In this document: positions 4,318-61,690 of the stretch, one piece after another
Position numbering within the stretch: position 1 is the first letter of the stretch
How the letters are laid out: every line of letters begins with the position of its first letter
NCBI RefSeq assembly: GCF_000522985.1
Contig: NZ_CP007128.1
Location: 1,534,220 to 1,598,219, forward strand
Length of the DNA: 64,000 nt
DNA from: Gemmatirosa kalamazoonensis
Lineage (GTDB): Bacteria > Gemmatimonadota > Gemmatimonadetes > Gemmatimonadales > Gemmatimonadaceae
Reading direction: 5' to 3'
Notes under the pieces: generated by a model
Seen by the model: the letters and a program-made list of their open reading frames with translations, nothing else
Told to the model about the DNA's origin: nothing
Databases searched by the model: none
Program-made: the position numbers and the translations under genes

Positions 4318-4449
4318 TGAACCGCAGAGGACGCACAGCGCCGCAGAGGACTGCCTCTTCTTTTTGAACCACAGAGGACACAGAGGACACGGAGGAGAAC
4401 CCTTCAAGAGAAGTTGGTTTTCTCTGTGTCCTCCGTGTCCTCTGTGATA
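4318..4449. repeat. Nested hairpin repeat family A, copy A3 (CGCAGAGG arm plus CACAGAGG hairpin)
   Basis: An outer left arm of the CCGCAGAGGACGC type (about 4319-4351) is followed by a complete inner hairpin of the CCACAGAGGACACAGAGG type (arms about 4368-4400 and 4416-4448). The outer right arm is missing. The two arm sequences are different variants of the same 9-bp unit, so one variant appears to have been inserted into the other. Confidence 0.85.
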
Positions 4450-20267: not shown

Positions 20268-20344
20268 GAACCGCAGAGGACGCAGAGGGCCGCAGAGGAC
20301 ATCATGCGCAGTCCTCTGCGGCCTTCTGCGTCCTCTGCGGTTCG
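20268..20344. repeat. Hairpin repeat family A, copy A6 (CGCAGAGG type)
   Basis: Inverted repeat with left arm GAACCGCAGAGGACGCAGAG and right arm CTTCTGCGTCCTCTGCGGTTC. Each arm is four 9-bp units of the GCAGAGGAC or GCAGAGGGC type. It lies between the PadR operator and the 3' end of the TldE gene. Confidence 0.92.
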
Positions 20345-33368: not shown

Positions 33369-34084
33369 CGATATGGGACGGGCTGTACGTGGCTCACGCG
33401 GAGGCGCGGAGAACGCGGAGAGCTGTTTCTTGTATCGAACCGCAGAGGACGCAGAGGACGCAGAGGACAACCAATTCTTGTTGGTTTCCTCTGCGTCCTC
33501 TGCGTCCTCTGCGGTCAACGCACACAGCCAAGGCAGTTCTCCGCGTTCTCCGCGTCTCCGCGTCCGACGCCGTCGTCGCGCTCGCGGCGCTACTCACCGC
33601 CTGCGACCGACCGTCGGGGCACGCCGCGCGCGCAACCCGCTCGGTCGCCGACAGTGTGCGTGGCGACAGCGCGGCGCTCGCGAGCCTGCCGCCGGCGTTG
33701 GCCGAGGCGTTCGCGGTGCGCGCGGTGCTGACGCGCGAGGCGCTGCGCGACACCGATGTCGCGTCGTGCGAGCCGCTGCTGCGGCGCGACACGAGCGCCG
33801 TGCGACGGCGGCTGCGCGCGCGGCTCGCCGACGGCTCGCGCACGGTGCTGTTCGTGCGTGCCGCGCGCGACACGATCCGGCGCGTGGAGCTGGTGCGGCG
33901 CGCGCGCGGCGGCGGGCAGCGCGGGTTCATCTGGGATGCGTCGACCGACGCGGCCGAGTCGGTAGAGTGGCGCGTCGGTGTCACTCGGCCGGAGGTGACG
34001 ACGCTGCCGCGCGGCGGACCGGTGCCGCGGGCGCTGCGGGCGCTCGGGCGGCAGCTGCTCGCGCTGCCGTGTGACGGGCGCTGA
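33365..34084 (+). CDS. Lipoprotein gene with hairpin repeat A7 inside its N-terminus
   Basis: The body from about 33564 onward encodes VVALAALLTACDRPSG, a normal lipoprotein signal with lipobox LTAC, and then a 150-residue helical and beta domain that I do not recognise. No ATG, GTG or TTG in this frame lies close before the signal. The nearest are GTG 33389 and GTG 33365; the latter has GGAG eight bases upstream and overlaps the cutC stop by GTGA. Between them and the signal lies the 171-base repeat A7 (57 codons), which stays open in this frame. Either the repeat lengthened the n-region of the signal peptide in frame, or the gene lost its own start and is silent. Confidence 0.5.
   Translation: MTIWDGLYVAHAEARRTRRAVSCIEPQRTQRTQRTTNSCWFPLRPLRPLRSTHTAKAVLRVLRVSASDAVVALAALLTACDRPSGHAARATRSVADSVRGDSAALASLPPALAEAFAVRAVLTREALRDTDVASCEPLLRRDTSAVRRRLRARLADGSRTVLFVRAARDTIRRVELVRRARGGGQRGFIWDASTDAAESVEWRVGVTRPEVTTLPRGGPVPRALRALGRQLLALPCDGR
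33393..33563. repeat. Nested hairpin repeat family A, copy A7
   Basis: Outer arms are CGCGGAG type (CTCACGCGGAGGCGCGGAGA ... TTCTCCGCGTCTCCGCG). Within them is a complete inner hairpin of CGCAGAGG type, with three 9-bp GCAGAGGAC units in each arm and loop ACCAATTCTTGTTGGT. The total length is 171 bases, a multiple of three, and lies in the open frame of the lipoprotein gene. Confidence 0.9.
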
Positions 34085-34108
34085 CGCGTTCGCGGGATCC
34101 GTCGCGCG

Positions 34109-34188
34109 CTCGCATGGTACCGGAGCGAGATTCCGGCGGTGCAATACTGGGCGAAGGGGGGGGAGCCCCCCCGGGACCTAGGTACCGC
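34109..34188 (-). repeat. Repeat family C, copy C1
   Basis: Reading the minus strand: GGTACCTAGGTCCCGGGGGG, then GCTCCCCCCCC, TTCGCCCAGTATTG and a tail ending GGTACCATGCGAGC. It holds two palindromes (ACCTAGGT and the G6-C6 hairpin). It lies just before the amidohydrolase start at 34205 but points away from that gene. Confidence 0.88.
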
Positions 34189-34204
34189 GAACCGACCCCG
34201 CGAG

Positions 34205-36911: not shown

Positions 36912-36918
36912 GCGCGCG

Positions 36919-37020
36919 CGGTACCTAGTATCCAGGGGGGCTCCCCCCCCTTCGCCCAAGGTTCCACTCGGCGGCGCGCACCGCGGTATCAGAACGACGC
37001 GTGCCGTCGCATTCCGACGC
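36919..37020 (+). repeat. Repeat family C, copy C2
   Basis: GGTACCTAGTATCCAGGGGG followed by GCTCCCCCCCC, TTCGCCCAAGGT, a GCGGCGCGCACCGC hairpin and the tail GTATCAGAACGACGCGTGCC..ATTCCGACGC. It points towards the histidine phosphatase gene, whose ATG is 15 bases past the tail. Confidence 0.9.
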
Positions 37021-37035
37021 ACCAGCCCATCGCCG

Positions 37036-39254: not shown

Positions 39255-39334
39255 CGTACCTAGGTCCTGGGGGGCTCCCCCCCCACGCCCATCATAGCAC
39301 CACGTTCGACCGGTCGCCGTACCATGCGAACGCG
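39255..39334 (+). repeat. Repeat family C, copy C3
   Basis: GTACCTAGGTCCTGGGGGGC then TCCCCCCCC, ACGCCCATC and a tail CGTACCATGCGAACGCGACG. It lies in the divergent promoter region between the M20 gene and the PAS/GAF kinase gene and points towards the kinase. Confidence 0.88.
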
Positions 39335-39468
39335 ACGCAGCCCCCCGTGACGCATCGCACCGTGACGCGCACGTACGCTTCACTTCGCCGGCACGTCCCG
39401 ATACCGTCCGGGTACCTCAGAGGAGGACCGTCCAGGAGCCGGTCCGCAGCGACGTACGGAGCAGTGAC

Positions 39469-48545: not shown

Positions 48546-48640
48546 GTCGTGCGGTACGGTTGTGAACACGGACGAGCGCCGCCGGTCAGCCGCGCCCCCT
48601 TGCATGCAATACACCCGGGTGCGCTCGGGGAGCCCTCCAC

Positions 48641-48739
48641 GCGTCGGAATGTGATGGCACGCGTCCGAATGGTACTGCGGCGCGGTCGCGGCGTAGCACC
48701 TTGGGCGCAGGGGGGGGACCCCCCTGGGACCTAGGTCCC
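48641..48739 (-). repeat. Repeat family C, copy C4
   Basis: Reading the minus strand: GGGACCTAGGTCCCAGGGGG, GTCCCCCCCCC, TGCGCCCAAGGTGCTACG, a GCGACCGCGC stem, GTACCATTCGGACGCGTGCC and ATTCCGACGC. It points towards the M1 peptidase gene. The tail matches that of C2. Confidence 0.9.
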
Positions 48740-48829
48740 GCGCCCGGACGAGTCCTTTCAAAACGCTTACCACCTCCGTCGCTCCGCGCCCTCGCCGAGG
48801 GTGGGACGCGGTGCAGGATTCTCGTCGGC

Positions 48830-49052
48830 CTCACGCGGAGCCGTGGGCGCGAGGCCTCTTGAAGTGAACCACAGAGGGCCGCAGAGGGCCGCGGAGGACT
48901 GCCCTTCTGAATTGAACCACAGAGGACACGGAGGACACGGAGGACACCAACTTCTTGAAGACGTTCTCCTCTGTGTCCTCTGTGTCCTCTGTGGTAAGAC
49001 GCGGTTGAAGTTGCCGTCCTCTGCGGCCCTCTGCGGCCCTCTGCGGTTCACC
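48830..49052. repeat. Nested hairpin repeat family A, copy A8 (three arm types)
   Basis: Remnant outer arm CTCACGCGGAGCCGTGGGCG; middle arms CCGCAGAGGGCCGC type (about 48864-48899 and 49012-49048); inner hairpin CCACAGAGGACACGGAGG type (about 48914-48992) with loop CCAACTTCTTGAAGACG. Three variants of the 9-bp unit are thus stacked one inside another. Confidence 0.9.
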
Positions 49053-49111: not shown

Positions 49112-50512
49112 ATGCGAAGAACCGCTCTCGCCGCCGCGCTCGCCATGCTCGCGACCGCCGCGCTCCCCGCGCAGCCGGCCGCGCCCGACGATGTCCTCGC
49201 GCACGTCCCCGCGCCGGCGTACGCCGCGATCGTCGACGTCACCGTCGTGCCGATGGATCGCGAGCGGATCCTCGAGCACCAGACGGTCGTCGTGCGCGAC
49301 AGCCGCATCGTCGCGTTAGGCGCGGCGCGCGGCACGCCGGTGCCGGCCGGCGCCGCGCGCATCGACGGGCGCGGGAAGTTCGTCGCGCCGGCGCTCGTCG
49401 ACATGCACGCGCACCTCTCGGCCGGCGACGAGTCGCTCGGCACCGCGGCCGGGCGCCAGCTCGCGCTCTACCTCGCGAACGGCTTCGCCACGGTGCGCGG
49501 CCTCTCCGCGCCGACGCCGATCCTGCCGGCCCAGCTCCGGCTGCGCGACCGCGTGGCGCGCGGCGAGGTGCTCGGTCCCACGCTGTACGTCGCCGGGCCC
49601 TCGCTGAACGGGGGGAGCGTGACGTCGCCGGCGGCGGGGGTGCGCATGGTCGACGACGCGAAGCGCGCCGGCTTCGACCTGCTGAAGACGCACGGCGGGC
49701 TGTCCGCCGAGGCGTACGACAGCGTGGCGGCGGCGGCGAAGCGCGACGGGCTCGCGCTCGTCGGCCACGTGACGCCGGAGTACGGCCTCGCGCGCGCGTA
49801 CGCCGCGGGGCAGCAGATCGAGCATCTCGACGGCTGGATCGCCGCCATCGTCGCCGACGGCGTGGCGGTGCCGCCGGGGCAGCTCGTGCTCGACCCCGCG
49901 GTGCTCGCGCGTGTCGACGCGCGGAAGCTCGACTCGGTGGTGCGCGAAACCGTTAGGCGCGGGATTTGGAACGGCCCCACGCTCGCGCTGTTCGAGACGC
50001 TGGCGTCGGACGAGACACCCGAGCAGCTCGCGCAACGCCCCGGCCTGCGCTATCTGCCGGCGGCCGAGGTGGCGCGGTGGGCGCCGGCGAAGGCGCAGAT
50101 CCTCGCCGCACCGGCCGAGGGGCGCGCCGCGTTCGTGACGCTGCGACGGCGCATCGTGCGCGCGCTGCACGACGCCGGGGCCAAGCTGCTCGTCGGGTCC
50201 GACTCGCCGCAGCTGTACATGGCGCCGGGCGACGCCGCGCTGCGCGAGATCGATGCGTTCGTCGCCGCGGGGCTCACGCCGTACGCCGCGCTCGAGGCGG
50301 CGACGCGCAACCCGGCCGAGTGGTTAGGCCGCACCGACGCCGGGACGGTCGCGGCCGGGAAGCGCGCCGATCTCGTGCTGCTGGACGCGAACCCGCTCGT
50401 CGACACGGCGAACCTGCGCAAGGTGGCCGGCCTGTTCGTCGGTGGACGGTGGCTCGACGCGTCCACGCTCGCCGCGCTGCGCGCGGGGGTGCTGGCGCGG
50501 GTGCAGGGGTGA
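49112..50512 (+). CDS. Secreted amidohydrolase family protein
   Basis: A 466-residue exported hydrolase. The signal peptide ends near LPAQ (residue 21). Canonical metal residues in order: DMHAHLS (HxH), FDLLKTHGG with the Lys, LVGHVTPE and QIEHLDG with the two His, and LLVGSDSPQ with the Asp. The end GKRADLVLLDANPL is standard for the imidazolonepropionase-like branch. It is a paralog of the enzyme at 34205-35641 in layout. The following M28 peptidase gene lies 53 bases downstream on the same strand, so the pair may act together on small peptides or amides. Confidence 0.9.
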   Translation: MRRTALAAALAMLATAALPAQPAAPDDVLAHVPAPAYAAIVDVTVVPMDRERILEHQTVVVRDSRIVALGAARGTPVPAGAARIDGRGKFVAPALVDMHAHLSAGDESLGTAAGRQLALYLANGFATVRGLSAPTPILPAQLRLRDRVARGEVLGPTLYVAGPSLNGGSVTSPAAGVRMVDDAKRAGFDLLKTHGGLSAEAYDSVAAAAKRDGLALVGHVTPEYGLARAYAAGQQIEHLDGWIAAIVADGVAVPPGQLVLDPAVLARVDARKLDSVVRETVRRGIWNGPTLALFETLASDETPEQLAQRPGLRYLPAAEVARWAPAKAQILAAPAEGRAAFVTLRRRIVRALHDAGAKLLVGSDSPQLYMAPGDAALREIDAFVAAGLTPYAALEAATRNPAEWLGRTDAGTVAAGKRADLVLLDANPLVDTANLRKVAGLFVGGRWLDASTLAALRAGVLARVQG

Positions 50513-50565
50513 GCGCGCGCCGTCGTCGCCCGTCGTTAGCTTCCGGACGACACCGTCCGCCGCGC

Positions 50566-52224
50566 ATGCCGAGAGCCGCCACGCTCAGCCTCCTCTGCTG
50601 CCTCCCCGGCGCGCTGCATGGCCAGCGCGTGACGAAGGCGGCGCCGACCGACACCGGTCCGACGACGGCCGCGATCACGCCGGCGGATCTGCGCCGCCGG
50701 CTGTACGTCTTCGCCGCCGACTCCATGATGGGGCGCGCCGCGGGCACGGCGGACAACCTCCGCGCCACGGCGTACATCGAGCGCGAGCTGCGCCGCCTCG
50801 GCCTCGTGCCCGGCGGCGACGGCGGCTCGTTCTTCCAGCAGGTGCCGCTCGTGCGCCGTGGCGTCGGGCAGGACGCCGCGCTGACGATCGACGGCGTCGA
50901 CGGCGCGCGATTCGTCGCCGGACGCGACTTTCTCGTGCGCGACCCCGGCGCCGCCCAGCGGTCGGTCGACGGCGCGGCGACGGTGTACGGCGGCACGTGG
51001 GGCGACTCGTCGACGTACGTCGCGCCCGCCGCCGCGAACGGAAAGCTCGTCGTCGTGGACGTGCGGCGCGGGTGGGAGGCCGACCGCGCGCATCTCCTGA
51101 AGCGCTATCGAGGCGCGGCCGGGATCGCCGTCGCGTCGTACGACTCCATGCCGCCCGACGTGCGCGGCGCGCTGTCCGACACGCCGGTGTCGCTCGCCGA
51201 CGGCGAGGCGCCGGTCGTCACCACGGGCGCGACGCCGGCGCCCGTGTTCCTGTACGTGACGCGGGCGCTCCGTGCCGCGCTGTTAGGCGCGCCGGGGCGC
51301 ACGGTGCGCGGCGACGTCGCGTTCGGCGACCAGCCGGCGCCGGCGCGGAACGTCGTCGCGATCCTGCCGGGGAGCGACCCCGCGATGCGCGGTCAGTACG
51401 TCGCGCTCGGGGCGCACAACGATCACGTCGGCTACACGCGCAACCCGGTGGACCACGACTCGATGCGCGCCGTGCTCACCGTCGCGCGGCCGCTCGGCGC
51501 CGACAGCCCCGAGCGGCCGCTCACCGCGGCGCAGCAGCGGCGCGTGCGCGCGCTCACCGACAGCCTGCACCGCGCCCACGGCGGCGCGCGCCCCGACTCG
51601 ATCTACAACGGCGCCGACGACGACGGCTCCGGCTCGATGGCGCTGCTCGAGATCGCGGAGCAGCTCGCGTCGCTGCCGACGGCGCCGAAGCGGTCGATCG
51701 TGTTCGTGTGGCACACCGGCGAGGAGCTGGGCCTGTATGGCTCGCAGTGGTTCACCGACCATCCGACGGTGCCGCGCGACTCGATCGTCGCGCAGCTCAA
51801 CATGGACATGATCGGGCGCGGCAGCGCGTCCGACGTCACGGGCGGCGGGCCGGCGTACCTGCAGCTCATCGGCTCGCGCCGGCTCTCCACGGAGCTCGGC
51901 GACCTGATCGAGCGCGTCAATCGCGAGACGGACGCCGGCTTCCGGTTCGACTACGCGTACGACGCGAACGGACATCCGGAGCAGTACTACTGCCGCAGCG
52001 ACCACTACGAGTACGCGCGCTACGGCATCCCGATCACGTTCTTCTCCACCGGCGGCCACCGCGACTACCACGAGGTGACCGACGAGCCGCAATACATCGA
52101 CTACGACCATTACGCGCGCGTGACGACGCTCGTGCGCGACGTCGCGGTGCGCATCGCGAACCTCGACCACCGGCTCGTCGTCGACCGGGCGAAGCCGGAT
52201 CCGCACGGGGAGTGCAGGCAGTGA
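50566..52224 (+). CDS. Secreted M28-family peptidase
   Basis: A 552-residue zinc peptidase with a signal peptide (MPRAATLSLLCCLPGALHGQ). A PA-like insert spans about 130-270 and the M28 ligands follow: ALGAHNDHVG (His), NGADDDGSGS (Asp), WHTGEELGLYGS (Glu-Glu), LNMDMIGRG (Asp) and TGGHRDYHEVTDE (His). An insert of about 50 residues between the first two ligands (DHDSMRAV..RAHGG) is longer than in typical aminopeptidases. It likely removes N-terminal residues from peptides. It is followed by the large repeat F. Confidence 0.92.
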   Translation: MPRAATLSLLCCLPGALHGQRVTKAAPTDTGPTTAAITPADLRRRLYVFAADSMMGRAAGTADNLRATAYIERELRRLGLVPGGDGGSFFQQVPLVRRGVGQDAALTIDGVDGARFVAGRDFLVRDPGAAQRSVDGAATVYGGTWGDSSTYVAPAAANGKLVVVDVRRGWEADRAHLLKRYRGAAGIAVASYDSMPPDVRGALSDTPVSLADGEAPVVTTGATPAPVFLYVTRALRAALLGAPGRTVRGDVAFGDQPAPARNVVAILPGSDPAMRGQYVALGAHNDHVGYTRNPVDHDSMRAVLTVARPLGADSPERPLTAAQQRRVRALTDSLHRAHGGARPDSIYNGADDDGSGSMALLEIAEQLASLPTAPKRSIVFVWHTGEELGLYGSQWFTDHPTVPRDSIVAQLNMDMIGRGSASDVTGGGPAYLQLIGSRRLSTELGDLIERVNRETDAGFRFDYAYDANGHPEQYYCRSDHYEYARYGIPITFFSTGGHRDYHEVTDEPQYIDYDHYARVTTLVRDVAVRIANLDHRLVVDRAKPDPHGECRQ

Positions 52225-52227
52225 CGA

Positions 52228-52594
52228 TTGACTGCGGGACGCTGCACGGCGGGACGCTGCACGGCGGGACGACTAACGGCGGGACGCCGCACGGCGGGAC
52301 GCTGAACGGCGGGATGGATACGGCGGGACGATCGACCGCGGGACGGTCGACGGCGGGCGCGGTACCTAGGTCCCAGGGGGGCTCCCCCCCCTTCGCCCAA
52401 GGTGCTACGCGCCGCTCGAGCGGCCGTACCAATCCGACGCCGGCTGGATCCCTCCGAACGCATCCCGATCCGCCCCGTGTCCATCCCGCCGTCAGTCGTC
52501 CCGCGGTCAGTCGTCCCGCGGTCAGTCGTCCCGCCGTCAGGCGTCCCGCCGTTAGTCGTCCCGCCGTGCAGCGTCCCGCCGTTAGTCATCAGTT
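52228..52594. repeat. Large hairpin of 15-bp repeats, family F, enclosing C5
   Basis: Both arms consist of 15-bp units: CGGCGGGACG plus five variable bases (CTGCA, ACTAA, CCGCA, CTGAA, CCTGA, ACTGA). The left arm (52228-52357) has about eight units; the right arm (52483-52594) is the inverted form with about seven. Both arms hold adjacent CTGCA and ACTAA units. The loop carries the family C copy. As 15 bp is five codons, both strands read as pentapeptide-like repeats, but no start or gene context supports translation. Confidence 0.88.
52361..52440 (+). repeat. Repeat family C, copy C5
   Basis: GGTACCTAGGTCCCAGGGGG, GCTCCCCCCCC, TTCGCCCAAGGTGCTACGCG, GCCGCTCGAGCGGC stem and CGTACCAATCCGACGC. 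It lies in the loop of repeat F and points towards the response regulator gene. Confidence 0.92.
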
Positions 52595-52609
52595 CGTCGG
52601 ACCACCCGT

Positions 52610-53311
52610 ATGAGGATCTTGCTGGTCGAGGACAACGACGATCTGGCGTTCGGCCTCCGCCGCACGCTCGAGGGGGAAGGCTACGACGTCGCCGTCGCCG
52701 CCGACGGGCCGTCGGGGATCCGCGCGGCGCTCGACGCGCGCCCCGACCTCGTCATCCTCGACGTGATGCTGCCGGGCGTCGACGGCTTCGGCGTGCTGCG
52801 CGCGCTGCGCGAGCGCGGGATGACGGCGCCTGTGCTCATGCTCACCGCGCGCGGCGACGAGACCGACAAGGTGCACGGCTTCGGGCTCGGCGCCGACGAC
52901 TACGTCACGAAGCCGTTCGGGCTCTCGGAGCTCGTGGCGCGCGTCGGCGCGCTGCTGCGGCGGGCGCGCCCGGCCGAGCCACCGAACGCGCCGAACGCCG
53001 ACGGCGCCGACGAGACGCTCGGCTTCGACGACGTCGTCATCGACCCGCGCTCGCGCGTCGTGACGCGGGGCGGGGAGCGGGTCGCCCTCACGCCGAAGGA
53101 GTTCGACCTGCTGCTCACGTTCGTGCGCCGACCGGGCGAGGTGCTGTCGCGCGTGTCGCTGCTGCGCGACGTGTGGGGGCACGCCGCCGACGTGCTCACG
53201 CGCACCGTCGACATCCACGTCGCGGAGCTGCGGCGTAAGCTGGAGCGCGTGCCGGCGCACCCGCGGCACCTGGTGACGGTGTGGAAGGCGGGGTACCGCT
53301 TCGACCCGTGA
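52610..53311 (+). CDS. OmpR/PhoB-type response regulator
   Basis: A 233-residue regulator. The receiver domain shows EDNDD, VILDVMLPGVDG (phosphoacceptor Asp), MLTARGDE and YVTKPFGLSEL. A linker with PNAPNADGADE leads to the winged-helix domain with LTPKEFDLLLTFVRRPGEVL, LLRDVWG and TVDIHVAELRRKLE, and a final VWKAGYRFDP. It is followed after 18 bases by its sensor kinase. The gene starts directly behind repeat F/C5, so the repeat region must hold or border its promoter. Confidence 0.95.
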   Translation: MRILLVEDNDDLAFGLRRTLEGEGYDVAVAADGPSGIRAALDARPDLVILDVMLPGVDGFGVLRALRERGMTAPVLMLTARGDETDKVHGFGLGADDYVTKPFGLSELVARVGALLRRARPAEPPNAPNADGADETLGFDDVVIDPRSRVVTRGGERVALTPKEFDLLLTFVRRPGEVLSRVSLLRDVWGHAADVLTRTVDIHVAELRRKLERVPAHPRHLVTVWKAGYRFDP

Positions 53312-61549: not shown

Positions 61550-61690
61550 TGGCTCCACGTACGTGTCGTTGTAGGACTAAAGAAGGACTGAAGGAGGACT
61601 GAAGAAGGACCGACAACGCTTTCTGTGTTTGGTCCTTCTTCAGTCTCTCTTCAGTCCTTCTTCAGTCCTCGAGAAACTCGTACGTGGAGC
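61550..61690. repeat. Hairpin of 12-bp GGACTGAAGAAG repeats, family D, copy D2
   Basis: Left arm: GGCTCCACGTACGTGTCGTT then GGACTAAAGAAG, GGACTGAAGGAG and GGACTGAAGAAG. Loop: CCGACAACGC..GTGTTTGG. Right arm: CCTTCTTCAGTCTCTCTTCAGTCC..TTCAGTCC, then ACTCGTACGTGGAGCC. It separates convergent genes. The terminal CTCCACGTACGAG-like word is shared with D1. Confidence 0.92.

Follow-up and report, generated by a model that had tools for sequence, protein, structure and literature searches.

A dispersed hairpin element with inverted tandem-repeat arms in Gemmatirosa kalamazoonensis and its proposed kinship with IVP hairpins and rRNA intervening sequences

The locus

The window, the whole stretch of DNA that was analyzed, is 64,000 nucleotides long and lies on the chromosome of Gemmatirosa kalamazoonensis (C2, 5,311,527 bases). 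The other contigs of the assembly have 1,106,233, 1,040,503, and 20,952 bases, and the genome parts reported for strain KBS708 are 5,312, 1,106, 1,041, and 21 kb (PMC3974934). Read directly, the sequence at 52225-52600 of the window is made up of two convergent arrays of a ~15-nt unit around a ~120-nt repeat, called C. The element has an M28 peptidase gene upstream and a response-regulator gene downstream, and its features are as follows.

49966-52224, + strand: upstream neighbor, an ORF with a Peptidase_M28 domain, the true start of which is probably later
52225-52357, + strand: left arm, ~8 units of GCGGGA(C/T)G-NNNN-AC(G/T/C), 15 nt each and one of 14 nt
52246-52314, + strand: best complementary part of the left arm, partner 52514-52582, 90%
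52353-52472, + strand: C core, in the loop, profile match of 104.3 bits
52484-52587, - strand: right arm, ~7 units in reverse orientation
52514-52582, - strand: best complementary part of the right arm, partner 52246-52314
52610-53311, + strand: downstream neighbor, a response regulator (PF00072, PF00486)

A first-pass annotation, made from the letters alone, had described a large hairpin with repeat arms around a different repeat, directly before a response-regulator gene. This description holds. TRF reports a period of 15 on both sides, with 8.3 copies at 52234-52357 and 6.9 copies at 52484-52587, and the best parts of the arms are 90% complementary over 69 nt. The RNA fold of the element has an energy of -273 kcal/mol compared to -182.8 +/- 5.6 kcal/mol in 100 shuffles (z -16). 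The motif CGGCGGGACG occurs 11 times in the window, where 2.86 copies are expected and none of 100 shuffles reaches 11. Nine of the 11 copies fall at 52247-52581, five of them forward in the left arm and four reverse in the right arm. Rfam models gave no match to the window at the gathering score.

The left array begins directly 3' of the stop codon of the upstream ORF (52222-52224), and the response-regulator ORF starts 23 nt beyond the end of the right array. No tie between the element and the response regulator was found, and sister copies adjoin unrelated genes.

The hairpin family in the genome

Members of the family are found throughout the genome. The two-unit arm pattern, allowing up to two mismatches, has 449 matches in the whole genome and 2 for a reversed control. 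Copies were then counted in 2.81 Mb of DNA, comprising C3 and C4 in full, the greater part of C1, and selected stretches of the chromosome; the latter were selected around C and array matches, so the chromosome counts are biased and the whole reads are those of C3 and C4. This DNA contains 55 array clusters, many with two units or one side, and 33 are two-sided. All 33 run forward and then reverse, and none shows the opposite polarity. The C motif is present in 31 of the 32 two-sided arrays with at least three cores per arm. On the megaplasmid C3, six two-sided hairpins correspond one-to-one to six copies of C. C4 has eight C copies at E<1e-5, and each of its three two-sided hairpins contains C.

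The first-pass annotation had asked whether C is always in the loop. It is there in 31 of 32 arrays, and there are two exceptions: the array pair at C2:875579 is almost loopless, and at C2:4973200-4973871, window-type arms enclose a gene for the "23S rRNA intervening-sequence protein" (IVP, also known as S23p). The arms of the latter are too widely spaced for inclusion among the 33. With an IVP gene or almost no loop at these sites, and with C also occurring without arms, C is not required by the hairpin. IVP is found in only one of the ~34 two-sided GGCGGGACG hairpins that were read, and for this reason it could have entered a hairpin that already existed.

Hairpin copies are mostly intergenic, and their neighboring genes and orientations are mixed. 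As in the window, the array of several sister copies starts near a stop codon. Six pairs of hairpins with similar C were compared, two of which are near-identical over C. In all six, the homology consists of C plus the arms and ends in or at the arms, while the flanks differ. One of the pairs is shared between the chromosome and a megaplasmid and another is megaplasmid to megaplasmid. As the homology spans C and the arms between unlike flanks, the whole hairpin seems to be copied as one piece to unlinked sites, including across replicons. The flanks were inspected by eye for the target-site duplication and fixed ends of a MITE or other DNA transposon derivative. The ends of the element fall within variable arrays, and neither a clear target duplication nor an empty site was seen.

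Outside of this species, the arm pattern is nearly absent. It gave two single matches in 58 other genomes and none in plasmids. Public genomes yielded 62 matches, scattered and either single or double, which resemble chance matches in GC-rich DNA. In the relatives searched, neither arms nor C were found beyond single weak matches.

Repeat C

The profile of C matches 73 copies at E<1e-5 in the 2.81 Mb. Its hallmarks are a G6/C6 hairpin that hardly varies and a conserved GGTACCAATCCGACGC block. Two arms flank 32 of the copies, one arm flanks 9, and 32 have none. In a tree of C, which rests on few columns and in which a few bare labels are wrong where another repeat lies between C and the arm (e.g., 5230890), armed and bare copies are intermixed and supported branches force at least four changes of state. 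The copy in the window loop scores highest of the five C copies in the window; armless copies are located at 34078-34191, 36912-37026, 39255-39358, and 48629-48745.

Some armless copies of C are part of genes, where they keep the reading frame, as in hisIE and in the gene of a GIY-YIG protein. In hisIE, C (C2:1433180-1433297) lies in the linker between the PRA-CH (PF01502) and PRA-PH (PF01503) domains. Because C occurs without arms, in some cases in frame within genes, it is a repeat in its own right. The C motif has one weak match in 98 other genomes.

Two functions were considered for C and rejected. A promoter or 5' leader would fit the many lone copies that precede a start codon, and C lies upstream of a same-direction gene in many copies, but the gene context is mixed and some copies are intragenic. 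As a structured RNA, an alifold of the 73 copies recovers the G6/C6 hairpin with few double changes on either strand, and the covariation is unconvincing. Rickettsia palindromic elements are palindromic repeats that also occur in frame within protein genes. C shares both properties; the sequences are unrelated, and C differs in being mostly intergenic and in hairpin loops.

In several copies with one arm or a wide loop (C2:2953430-2953600, C2:4967100-4967230, and C2:1153890-1154010), C is next to a third repeat, which has its own palindrome around a GGATCAGCGGATTCGCGAATCC-like center.

Turnover of the arms

The unit had been described as ten fixed plus five variable bases. Its length of ~15 nt is correct, and the exact split is not: over 408 spacers of 32 elements, ~4 positions are free and the others are nearly fixed, and units of 14 nt exist, one of them in the left arm of the window element. 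Of 344 pairs of adjacent spacers, 155 are identical, where 4% is expected, and one arm has a run of ~28 identical units. Both observations indicate that units duplicate in place.

Rare unit types (those in at most 4 of 64 arms) are common to both arms of one element nine times, compared to 0.86 expected, and none of 10,000 permutations is as high. The shared types come mostly from four elements, including that of the window, where CTGCA sits next to ACTAA in both arms, in register and with the order kept, as the first-pass annotation had noticed. Removing the window element and the three strongest cases leaves three shared rare types against 0.66 (249 of 10,000 permutations; 28 elements). In C2_1848866, an odd long unit is found at the matching place in both arms.

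Arms of the same element are not similar in general. Whole-arm alignment scores 0.515 within and 0.509 between elements, with 2,821 of 10,000 permutations as high. The partner arm ranks first in 3 of 32 elements, and that of the window element ranks fourth. The copy numbers of left and right arms are uncorrelated (rho -0.05). The excess of shared rare types thus supports arm-to-arm copying or inversion in a minority of elements, that of the window among them, and not as their general origin.

IVP genes between inverted arms

The gene at C2:4973412 encodes a four-helix-bundle protein (PF05635/TIGR02436), with 2gsc and 2rld as related solved structures. The genome has nine IVP matches. The four IVP genes that were read are all flanked by inverted arms ~460-530 nt apart; in three, the arms are tandem units of 8 or 15 nt, and at C2:291033 they are not clearly tandem. 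Arms were scored by aligning the 250 nt upstream of a gene to the reverse complement of the 250 nt downstream. These four genes score 22-60, whereas the maximum of 1,500 random windows is 19.5. Among 502 called small genes, the top six scores belong to three IVP, two GxxExxY, and one LOR gene, and the next is 19.5; the fourth IVP gene was missed by the gene caller and was scored separately.

IVP loci from plasmids and viral contigs are often built in the same way. The plasmid samples are 14 of 18 matches of one search and 7 of 26 of another, with duplicates and weak matches omitted. Of these loci, 13 of 21 score above 12.5 (9 of 14 and 4 of 7); the control windows of the first 14 overlap IVP genes, which makes for a stricter control, and the 12.5 line was borrowed for the other seven in place of a control of their own. 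In viral contigs, 24 of 29 loci exceed 11.0 and 23 exceed 12.5, the 95% and 99% points of 475 control windows. Many viral loci are near-duplicates, and by eye the 29 form ~21 groups, of which 19 are above 11.0. Eight of the 21 plasmid loci and five of the 29 viral loci are below threshold. Inverted arms are absent from L307, L310, and L313, and L310 has arrays in the same direction on both sides. Since IVP genes between inverted arms far exceed the control windows, and since this holds for all four that were read in this genome, IVP does not behave as a chance passenger of hairpins.

The arm units are usually tandem and 7-8 nt long. They vary by locus (TAGGGAG, GGGTGTA, AGTGGAG, ACGTTCA, and others), and there is no single conserved sequence. 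Arms paired across different loci have a 99% point of 24.5, with some unit types recurring. IVP is present in 35 of 40 genomes searched in this group, including this one. Searches of the open-access literature turned up no account of IVP genes enclosed by inverted tandem arms.

Several of the plasmid IVP copies are embedded in gene sets, with cas6 and cas4, cas10 and cmr3, or two ribonucleotide reductase genes on either side. The armed IVP genes of L296, L300, and L295 lie within type I-D and III-B CRISPR gene sets of cyanobacteria, and an association of IVP with CRISPR may come from insertion. IVP is among the domain names in the available part of a CRISPR survey (PMC10910872).

The DNA adjoining one IVP hairpin of this genome (C2:338777-339208) has a 69% match to the end of the M28 peptidase gene of the window. 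By this match, the two genes appear to be related, and a hairpin borders both of them, holding IVP in the one case and C in the other.

Comparison with known systems

The closest likeness is to the intervening sequences (IVS) of 23S rRNA in Coxiella, Leptospira, and Azospirillum. Like the window family, these have complementary stem arms, short tandem units, variation in copy number, and an IVP gene in some copies only. IVS without IVP exist, so the IVP-less loop of the window element does not exclude it from this kinship. The borders of the window element form a complementary stem, as those of an IVS do (69 nt, 90%; fold z -16). Unlike an IVS, the window element has protein genes on both sides rather than a place in an rRNA helix, its units are longer (15 nt) and variable, and C occupies the loop instead of IVP. 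The IVP gene of Azospirillum lipoferum is inside a complete LSU rRNA match and has similarly built arms, scoring 23.5. As described in the accessible portion of one report, the S23p gene of the Coxiella IVS is preceded by three tandem copies of the heptamer GACAGAT, or by two in some strains; the IVS has a 28-bp terminal stem and is excised by RNase III (PMC4990558). The heptamer build is not generalized in that portion.

In Nostoc, one of two seven-nucleotide motifs serves as the building block of the P6b stem in the tRNA-Leu intron, according to the part of the study available (PMC4476775). This stem shares with the window arms the inverted short tandem units and the change by whole units, and its unit class shifts between lineages; it differs in lying within a group I intron, in its geneless loop, and in unit length. 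In other work, cyanobacterial STRR repeats form comparable stems of inverted short tandem units. Foldback transposons of Drosophila have long terminal inverted repeats of short tandem units and a variable middle. These two properties are shared with the window family, but the transposons are eukaryotic and larger.

REP, BIME, and REPIN sequences are high-copy intergenic palindromes, as is the window family, but they lack 15-nt tandem arms. REPINs need the RAYT (Y1) transposase. PF01797, the Y1/RAYT family, has no matches in this genome and is found in 5 of 14 control genomes, and a REPIN/RAYT model was therefore rejected. We know of no transposase for the window element. Another candidate was the diversity-generating retroelement (DGR), and PF05635 resembles Avd in the available part of a DGR survey (PMC10053308). 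This model was dropped because the genome has no match to the reverse transcriptase PF00078, which is found in 3 of 14 control genomes.

Proposed origin and alternatives

The most fitting view of the window element is that of a mobile hairpin whose arms renew themselves. The explanation favored here, to which we give about an even chance, is that it is a dispersed hairpin element with arms that turn over and a loop that serves for docking, within a wider class of IVP hairpins that includes the IVS, is tolerated through RNase III, and spreads with the help of IVP. The window feature is one copy of this mostly intergenic element. Its arms, as inverted tandem arrays, would be lengthened or shortened by slippage or unequal exchange, and occasionally one arm would be rewritten from its partner. 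The loop would act as a docking place, taken by the separate repeat C in most copies and by an IVP gene in one. In the wider class, inverted arms of short tandem units would enclose a small IVP gene; IVP-less derivatives would also belong to it, and the IVS would be its form in rRNA. On this reading, which draws on the one arm family shared in this genome and on the general association of IVP with arms, the window element would be an IVP-less representative of a class of hairpins akin to the IVS.

Once the element is transcribed together with its neighbors, its two arms would pair into a single long stem of RNA. RNase III could cleave this stem, which would make insertion at gene borders tolerable. 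RNase III processing of window-type elements is carried over from the IVS by analogy. A DNA copy would spread to new places, and IVP, where present, would act on the hairpin and may take part in its movement. The data themselves establish the family, its polarity, the contents of the loops, the turnover of units, and the association of IVP with arms; kinship with the IVS, processing by RNase III, and a part for IVP in movement are inferred.

The main alternative is a species-specific family of intergenic palindromes, similar to REP/BIME, ERIC, or MITE sequences, with the IVP gene at C2:4973412 as a chance passenger. The likeness to the IVS would be convergent, because any hairpin with slipping arms would look alike. 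The lack of arms and C in the relatives searched fits such a family, as do the many other geneless, short-loop inverted-array families of the genome, the intergenic placement of most copies, and the 31 of 32 loops that hold C, not IVP. The IVP genes between inverted arms in unrelated contigs, well above control windows, and in four of four cases in this genome speak against a chance passenger, and no Y1/RAYT transposase was found in the genome. We consider this alternative possible but rather doubtful. The first-pass annotation had proposed that an array had undergone inversion or back-copying around C, which could occur through template switching at the replication fork (quasi-palindrome correction). 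The shared rare unit types, the common CTGCA-ACTAA order, and the odd long unit of C2_1848866 agree with this for some elements, including that of the window. It is unlikely as the overall explanation, since there is no general similarity of arms within elements and no correlation of copy number, and it would account for the upkeep of some arms but not for 33 copies of the same polarity.

Least probable, and very unlikely in our judgment, is a host device between genes, such as a two-way transcription terminator, a stabilizer of mRNA 3' ends, or a promoter insulator. An array that begins at the upstream stop codon here and near one in several sisters, the very stable fold, and the position of C upstream of a same-direction gene in many copies would suit such a role. 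Mixed neighbor genes and orientations, free drift in the number and sequence of units, and intragenic, in-frame C in hisIE and the GIY-YIG protein would not.

Returning to the mobile hairpin, a broader proposal is offered tentatively, at somewhat less than an even chance. IVP genes with inverted tandem arms may form one widespread class of bacterial hairpins, found between and inside operons and in rRNA, with the IVS as the ribosomal branch. Many of the high-copy hairpins with tandem arms, including those of Gemmatirosa and perhaps the cyanobacterial heptamer repeats, might be geneless offspring with loops that are landing sites for repeats like C. The dozens of hairpin copies here and the IVP hairpins in many bacteria point to a widespread, little-noticed kind of selfish element.

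The function of IVP/S23p and the spread of the rRNA IVS are long-standing open questions. If IVP genes regularly lie in tandem-unit hairpins across phyla outside of rRNA, these questions could be tested in genomes with dozens of geneless copies. If true, this would also provide one explanation for several short-tandem-repeat families that are used as strain fingerprints and whose origin is obscure. With IVP present in most genomes of this group, the arm test can be widened across it.

Other inverted arrays

Other inverted arrays abound in the genome. Their units are 9, 10, 11, or 14 nt long, and they enclose short loops, nested hairpins, or a gene. Where two similar arrays on C3 and C4 are at most 150 nt apart, they are inverted in 161 cases and direct in 3; reassigning the units among the arrays at random gives a mean of 3.7 (20 shuffles). 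Five more inverted tandem-array hairpins, with 9-, 10-, and 11-nt units, are in the window at 4370-4446, 20272-20339, 33441-33513, 48872-49046, and 61573-61669. The hairpin at 48872-49046 has a second hairpin, of a different unit, in its loop.

GxxExxY genes were considered as a similarly armed class and set aside: two are in the top six scores of this genome, but three on plasmids score 9-12. At 741-1219 of the window, a broken GxxExxY (PDDEXK_3) gene, with matches at 850-963 and 963-1082, lies between ACGCGGAGG-unit hairpins. The GxxExxY genes at C3:1092464-1092907 and C3:993804-994168 have a complete hairpin on each side, of one unit family. At C2:816678-817172, a LURP-one-related gene is found between arrays of a 14-nt GGCGGCGCTG unit.
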